From positions 1 to 23,458 of the IMG/VR virus record IMGVR_UViG_3300046011_005901: a stretch of 23,458 bases of DNA. The stretch is one strand, 5' to 3'. Under the pieces are notes generated by a model. The model was not told the DNA's origin and did not search any database. It worked only from the letters and a program-made list of their open reading frames with translations. Positions 4,704 through 20,827 of this stretch are shown in pieces; within the stretch, counting starts at the first letter, position 1, and every line of letters begins with the position of its first letter. The translations under genes and the position numbers were made by a program. The stretch is from a virus.

Positions 4704-4913
4704 TTGAAACCAATTAAATGCAGTGTAAGAATTAAGAACGACAAGCCTATTCTTTTCTGGTATGAAGTTTATCCAAGCAAAGACGGCGAAGTGTGCCGCT
4801 TAGAGTCCTTCACTTTTGAAGATAGTTTTTCATCGACCACTGTGGAATATATGCGTAGTTTGAGGCAAGCTGATGATGAATTAGTCAATGAAACATTAAA
4901 ACAATTTCGATGA
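4704..4913 (+). CDS. Small protein starting at TTG, unknown function
   Basis: A 69-residue protein read from TTG at 4704. The start is supported by a perfect GGAGG at 4695-4699. An ATG elsewhere in frame would remove most of the N-terminal region. The first 45 residues look like a beta-rich fold (CSVRIKNDKPILFWYEVYPS) and the end is a charged helix. A terminator follows about 75 bases downstream. Function is unknown. Confidence 0.6.
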   Translation: MKPIKCSVRIKNDKPILFWYEVYPSKDGEVCRLESFTFEDSFSSTTVEYMRSLRQADDELVNETLKQFR

Positions 4914-4986
4914 TTGTGAAGAAATATTCATGCAAAGAGTAAAACGACTACATAAACCTAAGTTATAGTATCTTTTCAGACACTCC

Positions 4987-5014
4987 AGCACATTAAATTA
5001 ATAATGTGCTTTTT
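4987..5014 (+). terminator. Rho-independent terminator
   Basis: AGCACATT (4987-4994) pairs perfectly with AATGTGCT (5003-5010), followed by TTTT. It ends transcription of the small genes at 4283-4913. Confidence 0.8.
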
Positions 5015-5042
5015 GTCGTTTATTTTCACAATTTGCTTGCAT

Positions 5043-5064
5043 TTCTTTTTCAGTGGTCTATAAT
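5043..5064 (+). promoter_or_regulatory. Putative promoter of the 5117 gene
   Basis: A perfect TATAAT (5059-5064) lies 52 bases before the ATG and just after a terminator. The -35 region is weak: TTGCAT ends 16 bases upstream of the -10 box. Confidence 0.4.
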
Positions 5065-5116
5065 AACTACATCGGGTAAGCAATTCCGCAAAGCCCACTT
5101 TATATAGGCGGTTATC

Positions 5117-5575
5117 ATGGCACAAGGTACAAAGCAAGCATCGCAAGTTATCTCTAATTCCTCTCTTGGTTTTATCGCTGTACAGAACAAGGTAGGCGCT
5201 TGGTTCTGTCGCTGGGAGTATTCTGATTACTATGGCATCAAGGATACTAAGTGGACAGCCGTTGAATACATCAAAGTATCTAGTGATAACAAGATCACTG
5301 TCAAGCCTATAGGTAAGGATGCATTCTGTCAATGCGTCTTTATTGATAGCACATCAGCCTACCGCTTGCCTACTACGTCAAGCTGTACAGAGATACAGTA
5401 CCCTTGTGATGGTCTTTATATCGTGGATAAGTATAACGACAGCGTAGGCGCTTTTGAGTGTGCTTACCATTGGCTAGGTGGCAAGCTTGTTGCAAGTGGA
5501 GGCAACGCATACGATCAACATGTGTGCTTCAGAGAGATGGCAGAGAGTGATGTTATTAAGTACATAAGCAAGTGA
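5117..5575 (+). CDS. Hypothetical phage protein, own transcription unit
   Basis: A 152-residue soluble protein rich in tyrosine and cysteine (KVGAWFCRWEYSDYYGIKDT near residue 26). It is not recognised. It is framed by its own terminator upstream, a perfect -10 box and a strong terminator downstream, so it is probably a single-gene unit. The ribosome site is only moderate (AGGCGG). Such isolated, strongly bounded genes in phages are often host-interaction factors, but nothing specific supports that here. Confidence 0.75.
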   Translation: MAQGTKQASQVISNSSLGFIAVQNKVGAWFCRWEYSDYYGIKDTKWTAVEYIKVSSDNKITVKPIGKDAFCQCVFIDSTSAYRLPTTSSCTEIQYPCDGLYIVDKYNDSVGAFECAYHWLGGKLVASGGNAYDQHVCFREMAESDVIKYISK

Positions 5576-6547: not shown

Positions 6548-7141
6548 TTAGTCTGTAATTTCTACTGTAAAGTTATTTAAAGCTTCGATTACTTTTGGAT
6601 GCACCATCCCTTCATACTTTATTGCAAGCTCTTTGGCAAGAGCTTCCTTGTAAACTTTGTAAGCTTGAAAAGCCTCTTCTGGGGTGTCGTAGAATCCTAG
6701 ATGTTTACTAACACTTCTGCCATCACTCGCACTTGCTCGGTATAATCCGTAAGTTTTGTAGAAGTCAACGCCTATAGGACAATCACCTCTATCCCCCTTC
6801 CTCTTAGTTAAGAAAGTATTAACTTGCCTTGGAATAAAGAAGCTTGTATCCCCTGAGTAAAGTTTATTTCCTTTGAACACAACGTCCTTGTCCAATTGAT
6901 AATCTTTTAACTTAAACCCTATCTGAGACTGACACCACTCAGCGAAATACTGAAAGTTCTTGAAATCATCTGAAACTTCACAACCTATGTAACTAGGATA
7001 CCTTGCATGGAGTTTCGCAGAGTAACACCTCTCCAGCATATTTTGCCATAAGATGTATTCTTTCGTACGTTTTCTGCCGATAGTCCTAGGGTGTTTCCCT
7101 TTTTCAGAAACCCCAACTCCTTGCACTAATCTTCTACTCAT
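6548..7141 (-). CDS. HNH/AP2-type homing endonuclease-like protein
   Basis: This 197-residue protein belongs to the phage HNH-plus-AP2 group. Visible parts are a WQNMLERCY helix (residues 32-40), a DDFKNFQYFAEW segment, an HNH-like block with LDKD (83-86) and GNKLYS (91-96), and an AP2-like DNA-binding part (about 123-168, ending LGFYDTPEEAFQAYK). It is a clear paralogue of the protein at 18270-19079; both end in VEITD. Unlike that copy it lacks the N-terminal zinc-binding part, and SPENC is replaced by SGDTS, so the active site may be degraded. The ATG overlaps the previous stop (ATGA) and has GGGGAGGGG upstream, so it is co-translated with the operon. Confidence 0.8.
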   Translation of the reverse strand: MSRRLVQGVGVSEKGKHPRTIGRKRTKEYILWQNMLERCYSAKLHARYPSYIGCEVSDDFKNFQYFAEWCQSQIGFKLKDYQLDKDVVFKGNKLYSGDTSFFIPRQVNTFLTKRKGDRGDCPIGVDFYKTYGLYRASASDGRSVSKHLGFYDTPEEAFQAYKVYKEALAKELAIKYEGMVHPKVIEALNNFTVEITD

Positions 7142-9897: not shown

Positions 9898-9926
9898 ATA
9901 GTATTAGAGATTGGGAGGGATGTCAA
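9898..9926 (-). promoter_or_regulatory. Sigma-70 promoter of the antirepressor operon
   Basis: Read leftward: TTGACA (9926-9921), a 17-base spacer, then TACTAT (9903-9898), about 50 bases before the first ATG. The -35 box overlaps the stop region of the GIY-YIG-type gene, so this promoter marks the border between that gene and the operon. Confidence 0.7.
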
Positions 9927-11122
9927 GCTTTATCGTTTACTTTGTAAACAATTTCAGTTAATCCTGTACATAGCTTAAGAACTTCCTCTTTCCTGTCAAT
10001 GCTAATACTTTCACGTCTGAAGCCTTCGCAATCTATTAAGCCAGATTTATGTAGGGTTTTGATAGCATTCTCCACTGACAACACTCTTGCTCCAGACCCC
10101 TCGAAGATTCTTGTTGAGAGGATTTTGTATCCTAGCTCTTTTAAGTTCTTACGGTGGGTTGAAAGTCTGTTGTCAAGTTTTGTTGTGATGCCATAACCTA
10201 AGATAGCCGCAGAGTCCGTTTGGATTTCTAGGAGGTATAAATACCCATGTTTATTTTTATCATACCCCCGTATTGACGGATTACACTTTATACAATGACA
10301 CCCTGTCCTTTCTAAACTTCCGTGGGTTCGTCTATATATACCATGCACAGAACAAATAAACACAATGCTTACAAATTGCTTAACATACACCATCCCTAAG
10401 ATAGAAACGTTTACAAGATTATCCTCAACAGATTTGGCTTTTTCTAGAATATCAAATGCAGTTTTTAAGTAATATTCACTAGGTCTGTATTTAGGGGATG
10501 TCGAGCACATACAAGGTAGTATATTTTGGTGAAACAATGCACTAGAGTCAACTGTATATAAAGACTCAAATCCATTACTCTCGCATACCTTACAATAATA
10601 GCCAAGTATGTGCCTATCATTTGGACAAGGTATCTTTGTATCCCAAATAACTGTATTATTGTTTTTATTATTGAATGTTGCTATTCTCTTATCAGTTGAA
10701 ATAATTTTCTGCCCATAATTGCCACGACCATTTTTACTCATAAAATTTCTAATACTGTCAATAATAAATGTTTCTGAAGTTTGTTTACAGAACAGTTCAA
10801 TAGATGTCGAAGTTATTTTCTTTTTTACGTTCTTAAAACTTAAAAATTCGATTGGGAGATTCTCATCAATGATTTTCCTACGGACAACTATTTCCCATTG
10901 CGCTATGGATAGCCTAGGGTGTGATGAACACCTACAAGGAAGTTTTCCTTTATTTAAGTTAGAAACAGATACGTCAAAATAAGCCTCACCAAACAACTCA
11001 GGGTCTTCTGCACAAACACTGCACTTGACTTTTACGTAATTATTTCTATCACCACCATCCACCACAACAAGCTTGCCGTCATTAAAGGTTTTTCCTATGT
11101 GAGCTCTCCCATATTTCCCCAT
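9923..11122 (-). CDS. Divergent GIY-YIG-type homing endonuclease-like protein with zinc-binding repeats
   Basis: A 399-residue protein. The C-terminal third resembles a divergent GIY-YIG nuclease: YLYLLEI (294-300), GYGIT (309-313), R319, H323 and a glutamate at E351 in VENAI. The N-terminal two thirds carry repeated cysteine pairs likely to bind zinc: C34xxC37, C63xC65, C177xxC180, C204xC206, C257xxH260 and C275xC277xxC280. This layout of zinc-binding repeats before a nuclease is known in phage homing endonucleases. AGGAG precedes the ATG. It adjoins another GIY-YIG gene, suggesting a mobile cluster. Activity is not certain because the motif is divergent. Confidence 0.65.
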   Translation of the reverse strand: MGKYGRAHIGKTFNDGKLVVVDGGDRNNYVKVKCSVCAEDPELFGEAYFDVSVSNLNKGKLPCRCSSHPRLSIAQWEIVVRRKIIDENLPIEFLSFKNVKKKITSTSIELFCKQTSETFIIDSIRNFMSKNGRGNYGQKIISTDKRIATFNNKNNNTVIWDTKIPCPNDRHILGYYCKVCESNGFESLYTVDSSALFHQNILPCMCSTSPKYRPSEYYLKTAFDILEKAKSVEDNLVNVSILGMVYVKQFVSIVFICSVHGIYRRTHGSLERTGCHCIKCNPSIRGYDKNKHGYLYLLEIQTDSAAILGYGITTKLDNRLSTHRKNLKELGYKILSTRIFEGSGARVLSVENAIKTLHKSGLIDCEGFRRESISIDRKEEVLKLCTGLTEIVYKVNDKA

Positions 11123-11133
11123 TCTTTGTTCTC

Positions 11134-11865
11134 CTAATAAACTGTTTCCTTACGCACCAAACTTACAGATGGTTGTGCGAACGGTTGATCTTTCTCAGTA
11201 ACATCAACAACAGTTACTAACCCATCTGATTGAAGTGTTCTTATGATTTTCCATACGTTATTCATAGAAACACTAGCACCATTACCATCTCGCACTCTTC
11301 TTAAGTTATATGACCCTTTGTAGCCGTGTTGGATAATTAACTTCTCGCAAATAAGTAAATTACTAACTACAACATTAAATATCCTAAATAAAGGTGACTT
11401 AGGTAAGTTTACTGCTGCATAATTTACAACGTCTTGATTTATTGGAATATTCGGATTGAATACAAGTGAATTCCCAACAACGGTTGCTTGATTCTCTATA
11501 AAAGAACTAAAATCGTGTAAGTGAATGTACTTATTTGAGAATTCTTGTCCACAAGTCTCTCTATTATACGGAGGTTTAAACTTGGAGATTAATCTGCTCT
11601 CAAGAGATAATGCAACAGTGTCATTCATTCCAAACCTGTAGATATAAACCCTGTGAACAATCCCAAGGAAATGATCTTTGTTGAGTTGGTAAGAACTACT
11701 TGTACCAGATAATACATGTGTGTACCTATCTCCAGTGCCTTTACCAACATACACAATATCGTCATTTGGACTTACCACAATATATACATAACTCTTTCTA
11801 ACTTTGTTGGTAGTGCGTCCAAACACTACTTTAGCTAAATTTTCTGTTACCATCCAATCGTACAT
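11134..11865 (-). CDS. GIY-YIG endonuclease with C-terminal DNA-binding region
   Basis: A 243-residue protein from the ATG at 11865, chosen because GGAG lies nine bases upstream and the ATG follows the previous stop by one base; a GTG at 11901 and ATGs at 11880 and 11874 are in frame but less well placed. Key GIY-YIG residues are visible: YVYIV (26-30), VYVGKG (38-43), R47, H50, E89 and N101 in the FKPPYN segment. The C-terminal part (about 150-225) looks like a winged-helix domain (NNVWKIIRTLQSDGLVTVVD). Such proteins cut DNA and can act as homing endonucleases. It is in an apparent operon with the helix-turn-helix gene upstream. Confidence 0.75.
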   Translation of the reverse strand: MYDWMVTENLAKVVFGRTTNKVRKSYVYIVVSPNDDIVYVGKGTGDRYTHVLSGTSSSYQLNKDHFLGIVHRVYIYRFGMNDTVALSLESRLISKFKPPYNRETCGQEFSNKYIHLHDFSSFIENQATVVGNSLVFNPNIPINQDVVNYAAVNLPKSPLFRIFNVVVSNLLICEKLIIQHGYKGSYNLRRVRDGNGASVSMNNVWKIIRTLQSDGLVTVVDVTEKDQPFAQPSVSLVRKETVY

Positions 11866-11866
11866 C

Positions 11867-12676
11867 TTATTCATCTCCATCCCACTTGTTATCTCTTTCA
11901 CAATCTATATAGAAAGAAGCTTCATCAAAGTAATTAAACAAATCTTCATCTACCTCTTTATCCACAGTATTTGAAGCCCAAGCAAGGATATCAGGCTCAA
12001 CAACATATACTTTTTCCTCTATAGCAGAATTAGTATATATGCCTACTTTTTCATCACTATACTTTTCTACGCAAGTATATATATGGGATATAATAGCGTT
12101 ACGGTTCTCAAACTCATTAACTAAGTTCTCAATCATATTGATTGTTGACTGGGCATCTGTACCATTGCCAAATTTACTGCCTGCATACGTTAATGAAACA
12201 ATAGCCCAACGTACACTGTTAGCGTAAGAAGAATCAAGATTAAATAAAGCAATATAATTACTTACTTCCTCCTCAATCCTATCACTAATCAATTTTGCTG
12301 ATTGCACTAATTCAATAAATGATTGTTGTGCTTTGTGTGGCTGTAGCCAGTATGGACGTACAAGGCAGTCTTTGTGTTCACGTAATCTTAATTTGATGCG
12401 ATTAAATATCTTATCTTCTTTTATTTTGTCTTCCTTAGTGAATGTGTTTGTGTGCAAGGTTCTAATGATGTGTCGGATTTCAATATTTGTGATTCCTTCA
12501 TTACTTCTTGCTTTATTCATTGTTTGTGCAAGAATTTCATCATCTGTTTTGTGTTTCTTCACTGTCTTGAGGTTGGTTTTGCACCATATTTCACTACATC
12601 CTATTTGTTGTGCAATTTCTTTGTACGTACAACCTTCTTCACGTAGGTGTTTTGCTTTGTTTATGTCAATTTTCAT
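11867..12676 (-). CDS. Helix-turn-helix protein, unknown function
   Basis: A 269-residue protein. Residues about 17-37 (TYKEIAQQIGCSEIWCKTNL) form a clear helix-turn-helix like those in resolvases and small regulators. The rest is unrecognised and mainly helical, with an acidic C-terminus (DNKWDGDE). AAAGG precedes the ATG. It is the first gene after the promoter at 12720-12748. The helix-turn-helix suggests DNA binding; a role as a regulator or as a target-recognition part for the downstream GIY-YIG gene is possible. Confidence 0.7.
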   Translation of the reverse strand: MKIDINKAKHLREEGCTYKEIAQQIGCSEIWCKTNLKTVKKHKTDDEILAQTMNKARSNEGITNIEIRHIIRTLHTNTFTKEDKIKEDKIFNRIKLRLREHKDCLVRPYWLQPHKAQQSFIELVQSAKLISDRIEEEVSNYIALFNLDSSYANSVRWAIVSLTYAGSKFGNGTDAQSTINMIENLVNEFENRNAIISHIYTCVEKYSDEKVGIYTNSAIEEKVYVVEPDILAWASNTVDKEVDEDLFNYFDEASFYIDCERDNKWDGDE

Positions 12677-12807: not shown

Positions 12808-13473
12808 TTAAGCCTTCCAAATCCTCTCTTGAGCAATCTCAAAATACGTCTCATCAAGCTCAATTCCTATACCATTCCTGCCAGTGTTTTTACAAGCTAG
12901 TAAGGTTGTGCCACTTCCCATGAATGGGTCTAACACCGTACCACATTCTTTAGAAGAATTTGTAATCAGCTTCTCAACAAAAGATAAAGGCTTTTGTGAC
13001 ACATGAACTTTACCATTTTTAAGTGTTGGCATAGTTACAAACTCATAGTCTCTGCTTGTCATGTCATTAATTGGAAATGCCCTGCCTTTCCTAAAGAATA
13101 AAACTAGCTCAGTGTATTTCAAATACCACCTGTTAGGCATCTTAGTGTCCTTAATCATACTTATGACATTATGTAATTTAAAACCCACTTCTGTGGCGAC
13201 ATTTAGAAATTCTTGTAAACTGTTTGTGTTGGTGAATATGTACAAGTGAGAATCTTCTTTCATCTTATCGTAGCAAATCTTCAACCAAGTTTGTGTATCA
13301 GGTAACTCCCCTTCAAATAGATTATCTCCCATGCCACTTCTCATGTAATTTGGACGACAACTCTTTCCTTGTTTTGTCATTTTGTAGGGAGGGTCTGTAA
13401 GAACTAAATCGACAGAGTTTGTTTCTATATCTTTCATCATTTCCAAGCAGTCGCCTTGTAACAACTCTATCAT
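12808..13473 (-). CDS. DNA adenine methyltransferase (DPPY type)
   Basis: A 221-residue N6-adenine (or N4-cytosine) DNA methyltransferase. The catalytic DPPY lies at residues 27-30 and the S-adenosylmethionine-binding DPFMGSGTT at 182-190, followed by GIELDETYF. The catalytic motif precedes the cofactor motif, which is the beta-class order. Length is typical of phage orphan methyltransferases. AAAGGAG precedes the ATG, which overlaps the previous methyltransferase stop by four bases. No restriction enzyme lies nearby, so its likely role is to protect phage DNA from host restriction or to modify it for regulation. The target sequence cannot be told. Confidence 0.88.
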   Translation of the reverse strand: MIELLQGDCLEMMKDIETNSVDLVLTDPPYKMTKQGKSCRPNYMRSGMGDNLFEGELPDTQTWLKICYDKMKEDSHLYIFTNTNSLQEFLNVATEVGFKLHNVISMIKDTKMPNRWYLKYTELVLFFRKGRAFPINDMTSRDYEFVTMPTLKNGKVHVSQKPLSFVEKLITNSSKECGTVLDPFMGSGTTLLACKNTGRNGIGIELDETYFEIAQERIWKA

Positions 13474-14249
13474 ACATACTCCTTTATAATCAACTCTGCA
13501 TCTAAATTATTCGTTGTAATACATTCTCTTACCCGATTACAACCTATTTTGAAATATTCTTTATCCAGTTCAATACCAATTGCATTTCTTTCAGTATTCA
13601 GAGCTGCTACAATAGTCGTTGAACTGCCCATAGTAGGGTCAACCACAACATCACCTTCATTGCTATAAGACTTTATCAACCACTCCATAAGTTCTACAGG
13701 TTTCTGTGTGGGATGTACTTGATCTTGTCTGCGCCACTTCATAGGAAAGTCCAATACAGATATAGGATGTCTCTCACCTTTGTTATCAACGCTCACAACA
13801 GAAACTCCGTAACCATGATTATTTGTCTTTGTAACAACTCCAGTGCGTTTATAAGGAGTTCCCTCTGTTTTCTGAGGATTATATGTTTTGTGCTTACCTC
13901 CTCCCTTAGTGAAGACAATAACATCCTCGTGTTTCATCATTGGTCTAAACTTAGCTAACAGTGGGCTACCACATTTACTCTTTTTCCACACAAGGTTGTA
14001 TTTATACCATTTTTCATTACTACAGATTGTTTTTGCTGTAAATATTCCATTGCCAAATAGAATTATTGTAGCTCCTTCTTTACAAATACGACTGAAAGCT
14101 TCCCACAAAGGTTGGTATGGTATGACAGAATCCCATGACACATTTGTTGTGCCATAGGGTAAATCCGCTATAATTAAATCCACACTCCCATCAGGAATGC
14201 CTCTCATAACCTCTAGACAATCTCCATTGTACAGTTCTATTTTACTCAT
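13470..14249 (-). CDS. DNA methyltransferase (DLPY type)
   Basis: A 259-residue DNA methyltransferase. The catalytic motif is DLPY (residues 29-32, in IIADLPYGTT) rather than DPPY, a variant that occurs in some phage enzymes. VDPTMGSSTT (203-212) is the cofactor loop and HPTQKP (179-184) is also typical. The order is again beta class. It overlaps its neighbours on both sides by four and eight bases, so the two methyltransferases are translated together. The two are distinct rather than close duplicates and may have different targets. GGAG precedes the ATG. Confidence 0.87.
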   Translation of the reverse strand: MSKIELYNGDCLEVMRGIPDGSVDLIIADLPYGTTNVSWDSVIPYQPLWEAFSRICKEGATIILFGNGIFTAKTICSNEKWYKYNLVWKKSKCGSPLLAKFRPMMKHEDVIVFTKGGGKHKTYNPQKTEGTPYKRTGVVTKTNNHGYGVSVVSVDNKGERHPISVLDFPMKWRRQDQVHPTQKPVELMEWLIKSYSNEGDVVVDPTMGSSTTIVAALNTERNAIGIELDKEYFKIGCNRVRECITTNNLDAELIIKEYV

Positions 14250-17513: not shown

Positions 17514-17888
17514 ATGAGTGACGTAGATAATTCAGTCGGGGAGATAGTAAGGACAGGTGTTCAGAGTAAGAAGAACCCGATCACTGTATTTAAGAGAGCT
17601 TTGAACAAACATAGTAAGACAGCTATTGATTACTTAGCATCTGTGATGGAAGACCCGACAGCATCTAAGAAAGATCGACTGGAAGCTTCTAAAGAGTTAT
17701 TAAAGTTACATGCAGATATGTTGAAAGCAGAATCTACCGAGAAAGCTCGCAATAAAGAATTTGCAGCGAAGCATCACGAGTTGCTTGTAGGAATACAGCG
17801 TAATGGTGGGGTTATTGTGGATGATGACAGTGAAGACGATACAGATAGTCCCCTGCTTGATTTTGAGAATATCGCAGAAGTTGACTAA
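17514..17888 (+). CDS. terS: Small terminase subunit (TerS-like)
   Basis: A 124-residue protein in the position expected for the small terminase, upstream of terL. It is helical and charged, with a central coiled-coil-like region (DRLEASKELLKLHADMLKAE) and an acidic C-terminus (DDDSEDDTDS), both usual in small terminases, which form rings and recognise the packaging site. No clear N-terminal helix-turn-helix can be seen, so the call rests on context and shape. AGGAG precedes the ATG. Unusually, 1.2 kb separates it from terL because of an inserted homing endonuclease gene. Confidence 0.7.
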   Translation: MSDVDNSVGEIVRTGVQSKKNPITVFKRALNKHSKTAIDYLASVMEDPTASKKDRLEASKELLKLHADMLKAESTEKARNKEFAAKHHELLVGIQRNGGVIVDDDSEDDTDSPLLDFENIAEVD

Positions 17889-18269
17889 AGAATAAGGGAA
17901 GGAATCAGCCAACCCAAATAGGATTGAGGAGTTCCTTATAAACCTCGCTTAGATTGTAAATACAACAGCTCTCCACTGATTTCTCCTTGGCACGTTCCTC
18001 CTCCTCGTGCTTTCTCCTGTCAGTGTCTGAGAGCTGTTCTGTTTGTAATTTAGTTTTCTATTCGGTATTTGCGAATAGCGAATGAGTTTGAGGAGAGGAG
18101 TGGGATTTTGCCTGCTTGAGATTGAGGTAAGGTAGGGTGACGCTCAATCATTTATGAGTTTTATTATGTCAGGGCATTGGAGAGGAACCCCTCACAAGAA
18201 TCTTTAGTGCTTCTGACATAATAGAGTTTATTAACCGTCCGTAAGGATACAGCTTGTGAGGAGCAAAAT
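17889..18269 (+). other. Structured RNA region between terS and the HNH/AP2 gene
   Basis: A 380-base gap without a gene, holding three clear hairpins. First, AACAGCTCTC (17964-17973) pairs with GAGAGCTGTT (18029-18038), CACTGA (17974-17979) with TCAGTG (18020-18025), and GCACG (17990-17994) with CGTGC (18006-18010), around a pyrimidine-only loop. Second, GATTGAG (18120-18126) pairs with CTCAATC (18143-18149). Third, TATTATGTCAG (18162-18172) pairs with CTGACATAATA (18213-18223), with further pairs inside. The pyrimidine loop is complementary to the GAGGAG ribosome site at 18258-18263. It may control translation of the endonuclease gene; no known RNA class is recognised. Confidence 0.5.
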
Positions 18270-19079
18270 ATGTCAACAAAGAGATTAACACAAGAAATTG
18301 CAATTAAAAACCTTATCGCAGTACATGGAGATGAGTATGACTACTCAAATTCCTTATTCACCAGAACAAAAGATAAGATATTAATTACCTGCAAAAGACA
18401 TGGGGAATTTTCTCAAATCTATGCCGTACATAAAAGTGGTAGTGGGTGTCCTAGATGTCTAGATATTCACAGAGTGCGTAAATACAACCCTGACGAGAAA
18501 TCTGTGTACGGTGTTGGGTTCAGGCCTACAAGATATCCGTCACATGATTCTAACGGCAGAATAACAAAAGAATATAATACTTGGTCTGGCATGATGACAC
18601 GGTGCTACAACCCTAAGTATAAACTAAATAAACCTACTTATAATACTGCGGAAGTTTGTGATGACTGGTTACACGCAGACAATTTCATGGATTGGTGTCA
18701 GACGCAGGTAGGGTTCGGGGTGGAAGGGTTTCAACTAGATAAGGATATTCTAAATAAAGGCAATAAACTTTATTCTCCAGAAAATTGTGCATTTGTACCA
18801 GCAGAGGTTAATTCTCAGCTAACTAAGGCAGATGCAAGGAGAGGTGAGTTTCCTATAGGAGTTAGCTGGCACACTTATCATTGTAAATTCTCAGCATGTA
18901 TGAGGGCAGATAACAAAACTAAACATCTAGGGTATTTCAGCACTCCAGAGCAAGCTTTCTTAGCGTACAAAGTTAGTAAGGAGGCGTATTTGAAGGTCAT
19001 AGCTGAGAGATACAAGGATTTCATAGATGAGAGGGTGTATGTTGCACTATGTAACTATAAAGTCGAGATAACAGATTAG
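18270..19079 (+). CDS. HNH/AP2-type homing endonuclease-like protein
   Basis: A 269-residue free-standing homing endonuclease-like protein. An N-terminal zinc-binding part (about 6-64; C41, H44, C60xxC63) resembles DUF723-type domains. It is followed by WSGMMTRCY (105-113) and VCDDW, an HNH-like block with LDKD (157-160), GNKLYSPENC (164-173) and N181, and an AP2-like DNA-binding part (about 197-240). GAGGAG precedes the ATG. It is a paralogue of the gene at 6548-7141 but has an extra N-terminal domain and a better-preserved nuclease block. It lies 7 bases before exon 1 of the intron-split terL, so it may cut intron-free terL alleles and spread the intron; this role is inferred. Confidence 0.82.
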   Translation: MSTKRLTQEIAIKNLIAVHGDEYDYSNSLFTRTKDKILITCKRHGEFSQIYAVHKSGSGCPRCLDIHRVRKYNPDEKSVYGVGFRPTRYPSHDSNGRITKEYNTWSGMMTRCYNPKYKLNKPTYNTAEVCDDWLHADNFMDWCQTQVGFGVEGFQLDKDILNKGNKLYSPENCAFVPAEVNSQLTKADARRGEFPIGVSWHTYHCKFSACMRADNKTKHLGYFSTPEQAFLAYKVSKEAYLKVIAERYKDFIDERVYVALCNYKVEITD

Positions 19080-19086
19080 AGGATAA

Positions 19087-20827
19087 ATGAGTAAAAAAGA
19101 ACGTAAAGTATTAGCCCCTGCATCCGAAGCACATAGGAAGTTTTTAAATTGTAAATCAAACTTCGTAATTTTTGGAGGTGGAGCTGGATTGAAACCTAGT
19201 CCCGTATTTAAGTGATTAAATAATGAAAACCTATTGAACTCAGGGGAAGCGAAGACCTCGTAATCCTGATCTAAGCCTGAATACAACTCAGAATAAAGTA
19301 CGAGAAGAACGTGTCAGGAAAGAGCAACGACTATCGAAAGCACACAGAAATGTGGAAGCGAGTAGAGTAGAGCCAAGTGGCTCGAAGCGGTAGGCATCTT
19401 GATTAAAGATGATGATATAGTCTGGTCTGCATGGGGACATGCAGTAGCTAATTAGCGGAAGTAGATTAACGAACTACTTTGAACACAAAGCAGGTAAATC
19501 GCACCAAGCGTTAATGTTGATTCTAAAATACATTCACGACCCATATTTTAGAGGTGTTTTCATTCGTGAGACATCCACACAACTTTCACAGGCTGGTGGA
19601 TTGTTCATGGAAGCTCAAGATATGTGGAAAGATTATGGGGCAAAGTTTAAGACACATCCACAGATGACAGCCACGTTCCCAAGTGGAGCACAAGTGCAGT
19701 TTAAAGTGTGTCAAGCAGATAGAGACATTAACAACTTCGACGGTGGGCAGTTTTCATTAGTCTGCTTCGATGAGGCGCAATGGCACAGCGAAACTCAAAT
19801 TAAATACTTAGAGTCTCGCATTCGCTCTAAAGCACAAGCACCTCACCAGCTTATCTGCACAGCTAACCCATCAAGAGCATCCTACCTTTATCAATTCGTA
19901 CAACCATACCTTGATATGGAAACAGGGATTCCTATTCCTGAATTGTCTGGTAAAGAGAGATATTACGCTACTTATGGCGGTGTGACAGTTACAGCAGACA
20001 CTAAAGAAGAGTTGTTAGAAAAGTACGGAGATAAAGTACAAGCTCAAACTTATACTTATATTTCTGCTACGGTTAAAGATAACCCTATCATGAAAATCCT
20101 GAATCCAAACTATGTAGCTCGTTTGGAGAATTTGAAGCGCACAGAACGTGAACGTCTCTACTTGGGGTCATGGCACGCTAAGGAAGAGTCGCGGGGATTT
20201 TTTAAGAGAGATTGGTGTGAAGTTATTACAGAACTTCCAGACGATATTGTATCTACTGTACGTGGTATGGATATTGCTGGTAGCCTACCTTCTGAAGCTT
20301 ACCCTGACCCTGATTGGACTGCATCTGTGATGATGTCTAAGACTAAATCAGGTTATTACATCATACATCATGGAGAGCGTTATAGGTCTTTAATCAACGG
20401 TGTAATGGAACACATAGCAGAAACAGACCGCAAAGATAAGGCAATGGGACATTCGCCTACTGTATATCTACCAGAAGACGTTGGTGTAGCAGCTAAGGCA
20501 GCAACCATGTTCTTTGTCAAAACACTAACAGAAATGGGTGTGGATGCTAGGGTAGATAGGTCTGGTGGCACTAAGAGTAAATTACACAGGATGCAGCCAT
20601 TCTTAACATTAGCAGAAGCGGGATTTGTCAAAATCTTGGACGATGGGAGTTGGGATACAGAGCCTTTGTTAGCAGAATTGGAAGATTTTGTTGATGGCAG
20701 GCGTCAGCAAAAAGACGATTATTGGGACTCGGTTGGGACTTGCACGAAGGCTCTTATGAGAACTCAAACGATTCCCACCTTCAGTCTCCCAAACCTAACA
20801 AAAGCCTCACCTGTCCCAACAATATAG
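19087..20827 (+). CDS. terL: Large terminase subunit (TerL), split by a group I intron
   Basis: The phage packaging motor. Exons are 19087-19189 and 19491-20827; joined they give 479 residues. Exon 1 encodes 34 residues ending FGGGAG, and the first base of codon 35. After splicing, the Walker A loop reads GGGAGSGKS (30-38). Walker B is LVCFDEAQ (D128, E129), and ANPS (159-162) is the coupling motif. The nuclease part has MDIAG with D295, YLPEDVG with D364, and KDDYWD (D444, D447). Length is usual for TerL. Without splicing, translation stops at TGA 19213-19215, nine codons after the exon. Exon 1 has only a weak AGAGGA ribosome site near the end of the endonuclease gene. Confidence 0.93.
19190..19490 (+). 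other. Group I self-splicing intron in terL
   Basis: A 301-base intron without an ORF. The exon 1 end GCTGGAT pairs with an internal guide GTCCCGT (19199-19205), with the usual T-G pair at the splice site and one mismatch. CAACGACTA (19325-19333) matches the conserved R element, and GATATAGTC (19414-19422) the S element; GACTA and TAGTC form the P7 stem. The last intron base is G. The splice points follow from the requirement to restore the terminase reading frame and Walker A loop. The P and Q parts (near 19230-19265) are less clear to me. Confidence 0.9.

Follow-up and report, generated by a model that had tools for sequence, protein, structure and literature searches.

The DNA analysed here (the window) is an IMG/VR virus fragment of 23,458 bases. 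It carries a large terminase gene, terL, whose product is about 40% identical to the TerLs of 84- to 97-kb myoviruses of the PAK_P3/KPP10 type. As read from the DNA, terL is split between the first and second bases of the serine codon of its Walker A motif (GGGAG-S-GKS). The genes and segments around the split are listed below.

17514-17888, + strand: terS, small terminase subunit (PHROG 641, E 8e-4; syntenic TerS in the relatives L002-L004)
18270-19079, + strand: free-standing HNH endonuclease gene, 269 aa (PHROG 953, E 7.8e-74), ending 8 nt before the terL ATG
19087-19189, + strand: terL exon 1, 103 nt, or 34 codons plus T (translation and join)
19190-19490, + strand: predicted group IA self-splicing intron, 301 nt (RF00028, covariation, likeness to the T4 td type)
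19491-20827, + strand: terL exon 2 (Pfam Terminase_6N, E 4.1e-18; joined open reading frame)

Exon 1 ends with TTT GGA GGT GGA GCT GGA T, inside Walker A (FGGGAG plus T). The intron begins with TGAAACC and ends with AACACAAAG, and exon 2 opens with CAGGTAAATCG, completing the motif as (T)CA GGT AAA TCG (SGKS). Once joined, the exons restore FGGGAGSGKS in a frame that stays open for 479 amino acids; the unspliced frame reaches a stop 8 codons into the intron. The Walker A residues are contiguous in the relatives L004, L005, L006, and L011, and the TerL of L004, with its uninterrupted P-loop, is 95% identical to that of the window. An earlier note on this DNA had proposed a group I intron within the Walker A codons of terL, with a 34-codon exon plus T, a 301-base insert ending in G, and exons that rejoin as GGGAGSGKS. 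The join, the RF00028 match, and covariation bear this out to the base, except that the end coordinate given, 19513, falls 23 nt inside exon 2.

In the covariance search proposed in that note, 19180-19444 matched RF00028 with 79.3 bits, above the gathering score of 50 (E 6e-19; full model, 1-253); this is the only Rfam match in the whole window. A search for a second copy of the intron across the window found none. The elements of the RNA are as follows.

19183-19189, + strand: P1 exon strand GCUGGAU (U at -1, U.G wobble at the 5' splice site)
19194-19205, + strand: internal guide sequence (IGS) ACCUAGUCCCGU, made of ACCU (P10) and GUCCCGU (P1)
19230-19235, + strand: P3 5' strand CCUAUU (partner 19389-19394)
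19325-19333, + strand: R element, CAACGACTA
19329-19333, + strand: P7 5' strand GACUA, in the R element (covariation in relatives)
19414-19422, + strand: S element, GATATAGTC
19418-19422, + strand: P7 3' strand UAGUC, in the S element (covariation in relatives)
19490, + strand: omega-G, last intron base (sequence and frame of the join)

Since the folding energy of the single sequence is only 1.6 sd below that of shuffles (z -1.6), which is not unusual for pseudoknotted ribozymes, covariation was used as evidence. We aligned 17 introns, namely, that of the window, the terL P-loop introns of 15 relatives, and the KIL1 terL intron. RNAalifold proposed 52 pairs, 39 of them with two-sided changes; P7 and P8 escaped it, so we placed them manually and included them in the count; P1 was left out. 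The resulting 55 pairs are formed in 94.2% of the cells and show two-sided changes in 43 cases, with a covariation score of 0.641 versus a shuffle mean of 0.235 (none of 500 shuffles reached it) and slid controls of at most 0.141. P3, P4-P6, P7, P8, and P9 all covary. P3 is paired in 99% of the cells, with two-sided changes in all six pairs. P7, formed by the R and S elements that the note had pointed out, is paired throughout, with the compensatory variants GGUCA/UGACC and GAUCA/UGAUC in L007, L008, L040, and L053. Of the fold from P1 and P3 to P8 suggested there, covariation supports P3 to P9, including P7, and P1 pairs with one mismatch.

Two stems, P7.1 and P7.2, lie between P7 and P3 (columns 167-199 and 203-218, 94% and 100% paired) and therefore place the intron in subgroup IA. 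The T4 td intron has the same IA architecture with P7.1/P7.2 (group IA2), and the 3' half of the window intron matches td-type introns with 74% nucleotide identity over 124 nt (BLAST). However, the td intron sits in the thymidylate synthase gene and encodes a GIY-YIG endonuclease, whereas no ORF of at least 60 aa was found on the coding strand of the 301-nt window intron.

The RF00028 score, the covariation, and the existence of close relatives with an uninterrupted P-loop exclude chance. An intein, which would be an in-frame insert with intein splicing motifs, and a frameshift were both rejected because several in-frame stops interrupt the insert and it contains a ribozyme core. At the level of sequence, the splice-site anatomy and the RNA core are firmly established, and the insert is very probably a group I intron that is spliced out. 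For splicing of the window terL itself, an inference on our part, there are proven precedents in other phages.

To place this intron among its kin, 51 TerL relatives were collected from IMG/VR through the exon 2 protein motifs GAQ[VI]QFK and N[FY]DGGQ; since both lie downstream of the P-loop, the relatives were not chosen for its state. Among the 40 TerLs of the tree set, 18 have a P-loop group I intron, 3 have a P-loop intein (L037, L061, and L059, the last together with an intron), and 20 have neither. With the loop numbered F-G1-G2-G3-A-G4-S-G5-K-S, the introns occupy four positions within 7 bases:

Site A, after G2 (n=6): L023, L029, L031, L034, L035, L040
Site B, after G3 (n=8): L002, L003, L007, L010, L028, L053, L055, L059
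Site C, after A: L045
Site D, after the first base of the S codon: window, L057, L038

The site assignments of L045 and L053 are uncertain, as the last intron base at their frame-restoring junctions is A and not G; this points either to a 5' site displaced by one position or to an exception to the omega-G rule. Outside the P-loop, matches to the exon 2 query are contiguous, except for one further intron in L007. In that relative (4725-5342), the group I intron in Walker A of terL is followed, about 30 codons downstream, by a second one near STQLSQAG. L059 (335-1290) combines two kinds of insert in one Walker A motif of terL, with the group I intron following G3 and the intein following K.

Each intron seems to read the codons in front of it. 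In the window, GCUGGAU faces IGS positions 19199-19205 with U.G, A-U, G-C, G-C, a mismatch, C-G, and G.U, giving six of seven pairs with one internal mismatch, and the sequence predicts a P10 between ACCU (19194-19197) and AGGU of exon 2 (19492-19495). Site B introns have the IGS GCCUCCAC opposite the exon sequence GUGGUGGU; in L007, where the exon reads GCGGUGGU, the IGS is correspondingly GCCUCCGC. At site A, CCAA, CCGA, and CCAU stand opposite UUGG, UCGG, and AUGG, respectively. The guide and the exon thus covary from intron to intron (CCAC/GUGG, CCGC/GCGG, CCAA/UUGG, CCGA/UCGG, CCAU/AUGG), which supports both the site assignments and P1. Sites A and B lie one GGU repeat (a glycine codon) apart and have the IGS core GCCUCC in common. 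In the site A introns and in all scored site B introns except L055, a U.U mismatch falls at the third position of the penultimate glycine codon, so the guide would rely mainly on the invariant first two codon positions. P1 pairing is less regular at sites C and D.

The P-loop state changes 19 times over the 40-TerL tree, and well-supported branches force at least 14 changes of the intact/interrupted label. The window (site D) forms one clade with the site B carriers L002 and L003 and with L004, which has no insert, and the window's TerL exon 2 is 95 to 96% identical to those of L002-L004. Within coding positions 30-120, 19 of the 90 nt differ between the window and L002, none of them altering an amino acid; L002 and L003 are identical over positions 30-90 and about 15% divergent elsewhere. 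This exon-flank pattern, drawn from four sequences, is supported as what co-conversion during DNA-level acquisition would leave. On the comparison as a whole, the terL P-loop is a hotspot invaded repeatedly by introns and inteins at several positions a few bases apart.

We propose that, after transcription, the IGS would pair with the glycine/alanine codons just upstream (P1) and the ribozyme would cut after the U and join the T to CAGGTAAATCG, with P10 aligning the 3' exon, so that the P-loop is restored and only spliced mRNA would yield an active packaging ATPase. The suggestion in the earlier note that packaging depends on splicing is sound, because neither unspliced fragment has a complete P-loop; such dependence is also true of many phage introns in essential genes. 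At the DNA level, the intron may spread by collaborative homing: an endonuclease acting in trans would cut the intact P-loop DNA carried by a co-infecting relative, which would then acquire the intron and its flanks during repair. We consider the case for this homing step evenly balanced. The endonuclease would plausibly be the product of the HNH gene directly upstream (18270-19079), although we name this agent only tentatively.

The arrangement of an HNH gene beside an ORF-less intron fits the collaborative homing described for ICP1, T3-like phages, and a cyanophage (PMC10448857, PMC3984707). The adjacency of the two genetic elements is as in those systems; across the relatives, they do not travel together. 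HNH or other endonuclease genes lie directly upstream of many terL genes in the group, and one adjoins terL in 10 of 17 cases with an intron versus 9 of 18 without (Fisher p 0.74). Strict coupling of the intron to an upstream endonuclease was thereby rejected and, as such genes adjoin terL about equally in both classes, the HNH gene is at most a candidate homing partner; for site A alone, an endonuclease gene adjoins in 6 of 6 (p 0.05).

The HNH gene might alternatively be a packaging accessory, like HK97 gp74, unrelated to the intron. HNH genes upstream of terminase can act with it (Kala et al. 2014, as cited in PMC10448857), and endonuclease genes also flank uninterrupted terL genes, as in the 9 of 18 above. 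We find this unlikely. The gene matches PHROG 953, and the window contains a paralogue of it (a second HNH/AP2 gene at 6548-7141, - strand, 43% identical). It is also missing from the position upstream of terL in the relatives L002-L004, which have TerLs at least 95% identical to that of the window; this absence argues that it is not a fixed part of packaging. In L002-L004, the interval separating terS from terL holds a tRNA; in the window, no tRNA is present there (17889-18269), and the HNH gene lies in that interval instead. Elsewhere in the window, 9923-11901 (- strand) holds two neighboring homing-type genes, a PHROG 681 endonuclease gene with a CapR domain and a GIY-YIG-like gene, and two DNA methyltransferase genes lie in tandem at 12808-14249 (- strand).

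Less likely still, the intron could have arrived in the P-loop through reverse splicing into RNA, with the pairing of its IGS to glycine codons as the guide, and then reverse transcription instead of homing. The match of the IGS to the exon in each register, the single GGU between sites A and B with their identical core GCCUCC, the lack of an endonuclease gene within the intron, and the absence of a link between endonuclease adjacency and intron presence would all agree with such a route. However, synonymous blocks in the exon flanks track the intron type (L002 equals L003 over coding positions 30-90, with the window divergent), which speaks against it because DNA-level conversion is expected to leave them, and no reverse transcriptase was noticed in the 23-kb fragment. 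Finally, a decayed intron that no longer splices, leaving terL a pseudogene or made as two pieces, is very improbable: exon 2 has an internal ATG at 19514 and unspliced splits are known (Aeh1 NrdA and a CB7 gene; PMC7344957), but both exons are open and conserved (exon 2 at the identity given above), the core, splice-site U, omega-G, P1, and P10 are all in place, and neither piece of a gene split inside its P-loop would keep the nucleotide-binding loop.

Split P-loops are found beyond terL as well. A pattern scan of IMG/VR for an S element, TGAAYA, and then GGNAARWS gave at least 119 stretches. When an R element and an open frame were also required, at least 41 were retained versus 10 of 61 for a composition-matched permuted motif, an excess, itself a minimum, with p = 0.007 against the GK:KG background of 484:309 (near-duplicates in both counts); with near-duplicates removed, the counts were at least 34 versus 7 (p = 0.005). 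The exons upstream of the inserts show that P-loops are indeed split in replicative helicases (L157, L140, and L073; GAG/VKMGKS, with the slash at the split), in a DnaB-like gene (L066), and in other ATPases. The inserts of these three helicases and of a fourth split in the same way (L013, OP744025) bear endonuclease genes, and a phage replicative helicase in L185 (PP556867) also has an endonuclease-bearing insert. The closest isolate match to the window intron comes from the fourth, Escherichia phage A5-4 (OP744025; 80.6% identity over 35% of the query). Its Walker A motif is also split (FIGAG/VKMGKS), but in a replicative helicase and by an intron that carries an HNH gene. This match does not single out a helicase P-loop as the origin of the window intron, since the KIL1 terL intron, which lies outside the P-loop, and introns of large Pseudomonas phages are nearly as close as that of A5-4. 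We offer as a possibility, at somewhat less than even confidence, that phage group I introns use P-loop coding DNA in general as a landing pad, in which the IGS would read the glycine codons of GxxxxGK, related introns would settle in several registers, and introns would move among the P-loops of unrelated genes (terminase, replicative helicase, and AAA ATPases).

The nearest known system is the terL of Vibrio phage ICP1, for which RNA-seq, RT-PCR, and Sanger sequencing have demonstrated splicing (PMC10448857); the words "Walker" and "P-loop" are absent from that paper. As we read the ICP1 genome record (L262, HQ641347), the intron at 24402-24654 has MSDN...FYGGA before it and AGGGKS after it, which puts it in Walker A, and the uniqueness that the earlier note had implied for an insertion at the ATP-binding loop does not hold. 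As in the window, the ICP1 intron is ORF-less and interrupts Walker A codons, the N-terminal exon is short (about 32 codons, with no function in the annotation), and an endonuclease gene lies directly upstream of exon 1. The two differ in that ICP1 is split after alanine (GGA/AGGGKS) and the window within the serine codon (GGGAG-S/GKS), the endonuclease is of the T5orf172 class in ICP1 and HNH in the window, and splicing is proven in the former and inferred in the latter. Moreover, the ICP1 intron scores below the RF00028 gathering score and that of the window above it; since a proven intron is missed at this threshold, RF00028-based surveys undercount.

Pectobacterium phage CB7, the terL of which is spliced as judged by RT-PCR and Sanger sequencing (PMC7344957), and Lactobacillus phage LL-H also have terL group I introns. 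A Walker A position was checked for both and ruled out: they lie at Walker B (...GVD/EG in CB7, ...AVWF/ in LL-H) and contain an ORF, whereas the window intron lies at Walker A and has none. LL-H, cited in the earlier note as a precedent, is apt for the gene and not for the Walker A site. Many phages have terL group I introns (for example, CB7, KASIA, SIOphi, and Jug; PMC7344957, PMC8541194, PMC11878797, PMC12363816). In mycobacteriophage TerLs, inteins use two Walker A insertion points one residue apart (PMC5050341). These too are mobile self-splicing elements in TerL Walker A, but they act by protein splicing and sit between K and T or one residue away, whereas the window insert would act by RNA splicing.

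What is already known, then, is that the intron is of an ordinary group IA type and that splitting of the terL Walker A has a precedent in ICP1. Inteins favor P-loops. Group I introns favor conserved sites in general, according to a 2009 survey (PMC2814812); no statement that they favor P-loops was found in the open-access literature searched. The multiregister hotspot, the covariation of guide and codons, and the use of other P-loops are, as far as we checked, undescribed. In practice, "terminases" that seem to lack a P-loop should be checked for such a split, because a short exon 1 easily goes unannotated and the exon 2 ORF that gene-finding software would call here (ATG at 19514) has no Walker A; this check should come before any biological interpretation.

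Taken at the strength of the sequence comparison, group I introns, like inteins, favor the P-loop within this gene family; they occupy four positions spanning no more than 7 bases and turn over so fast that TerLs more than 95% identical carry different introns or none. Conservation of the protein and pairing of the RNA guide appear to pick the same few codons, and if the landing pad proposal is true, the NTPase motif itself would be a shared homing target. The natural intron-plus, intron-minus, and register-shifted alleles described here make the question of targeting directly testable.
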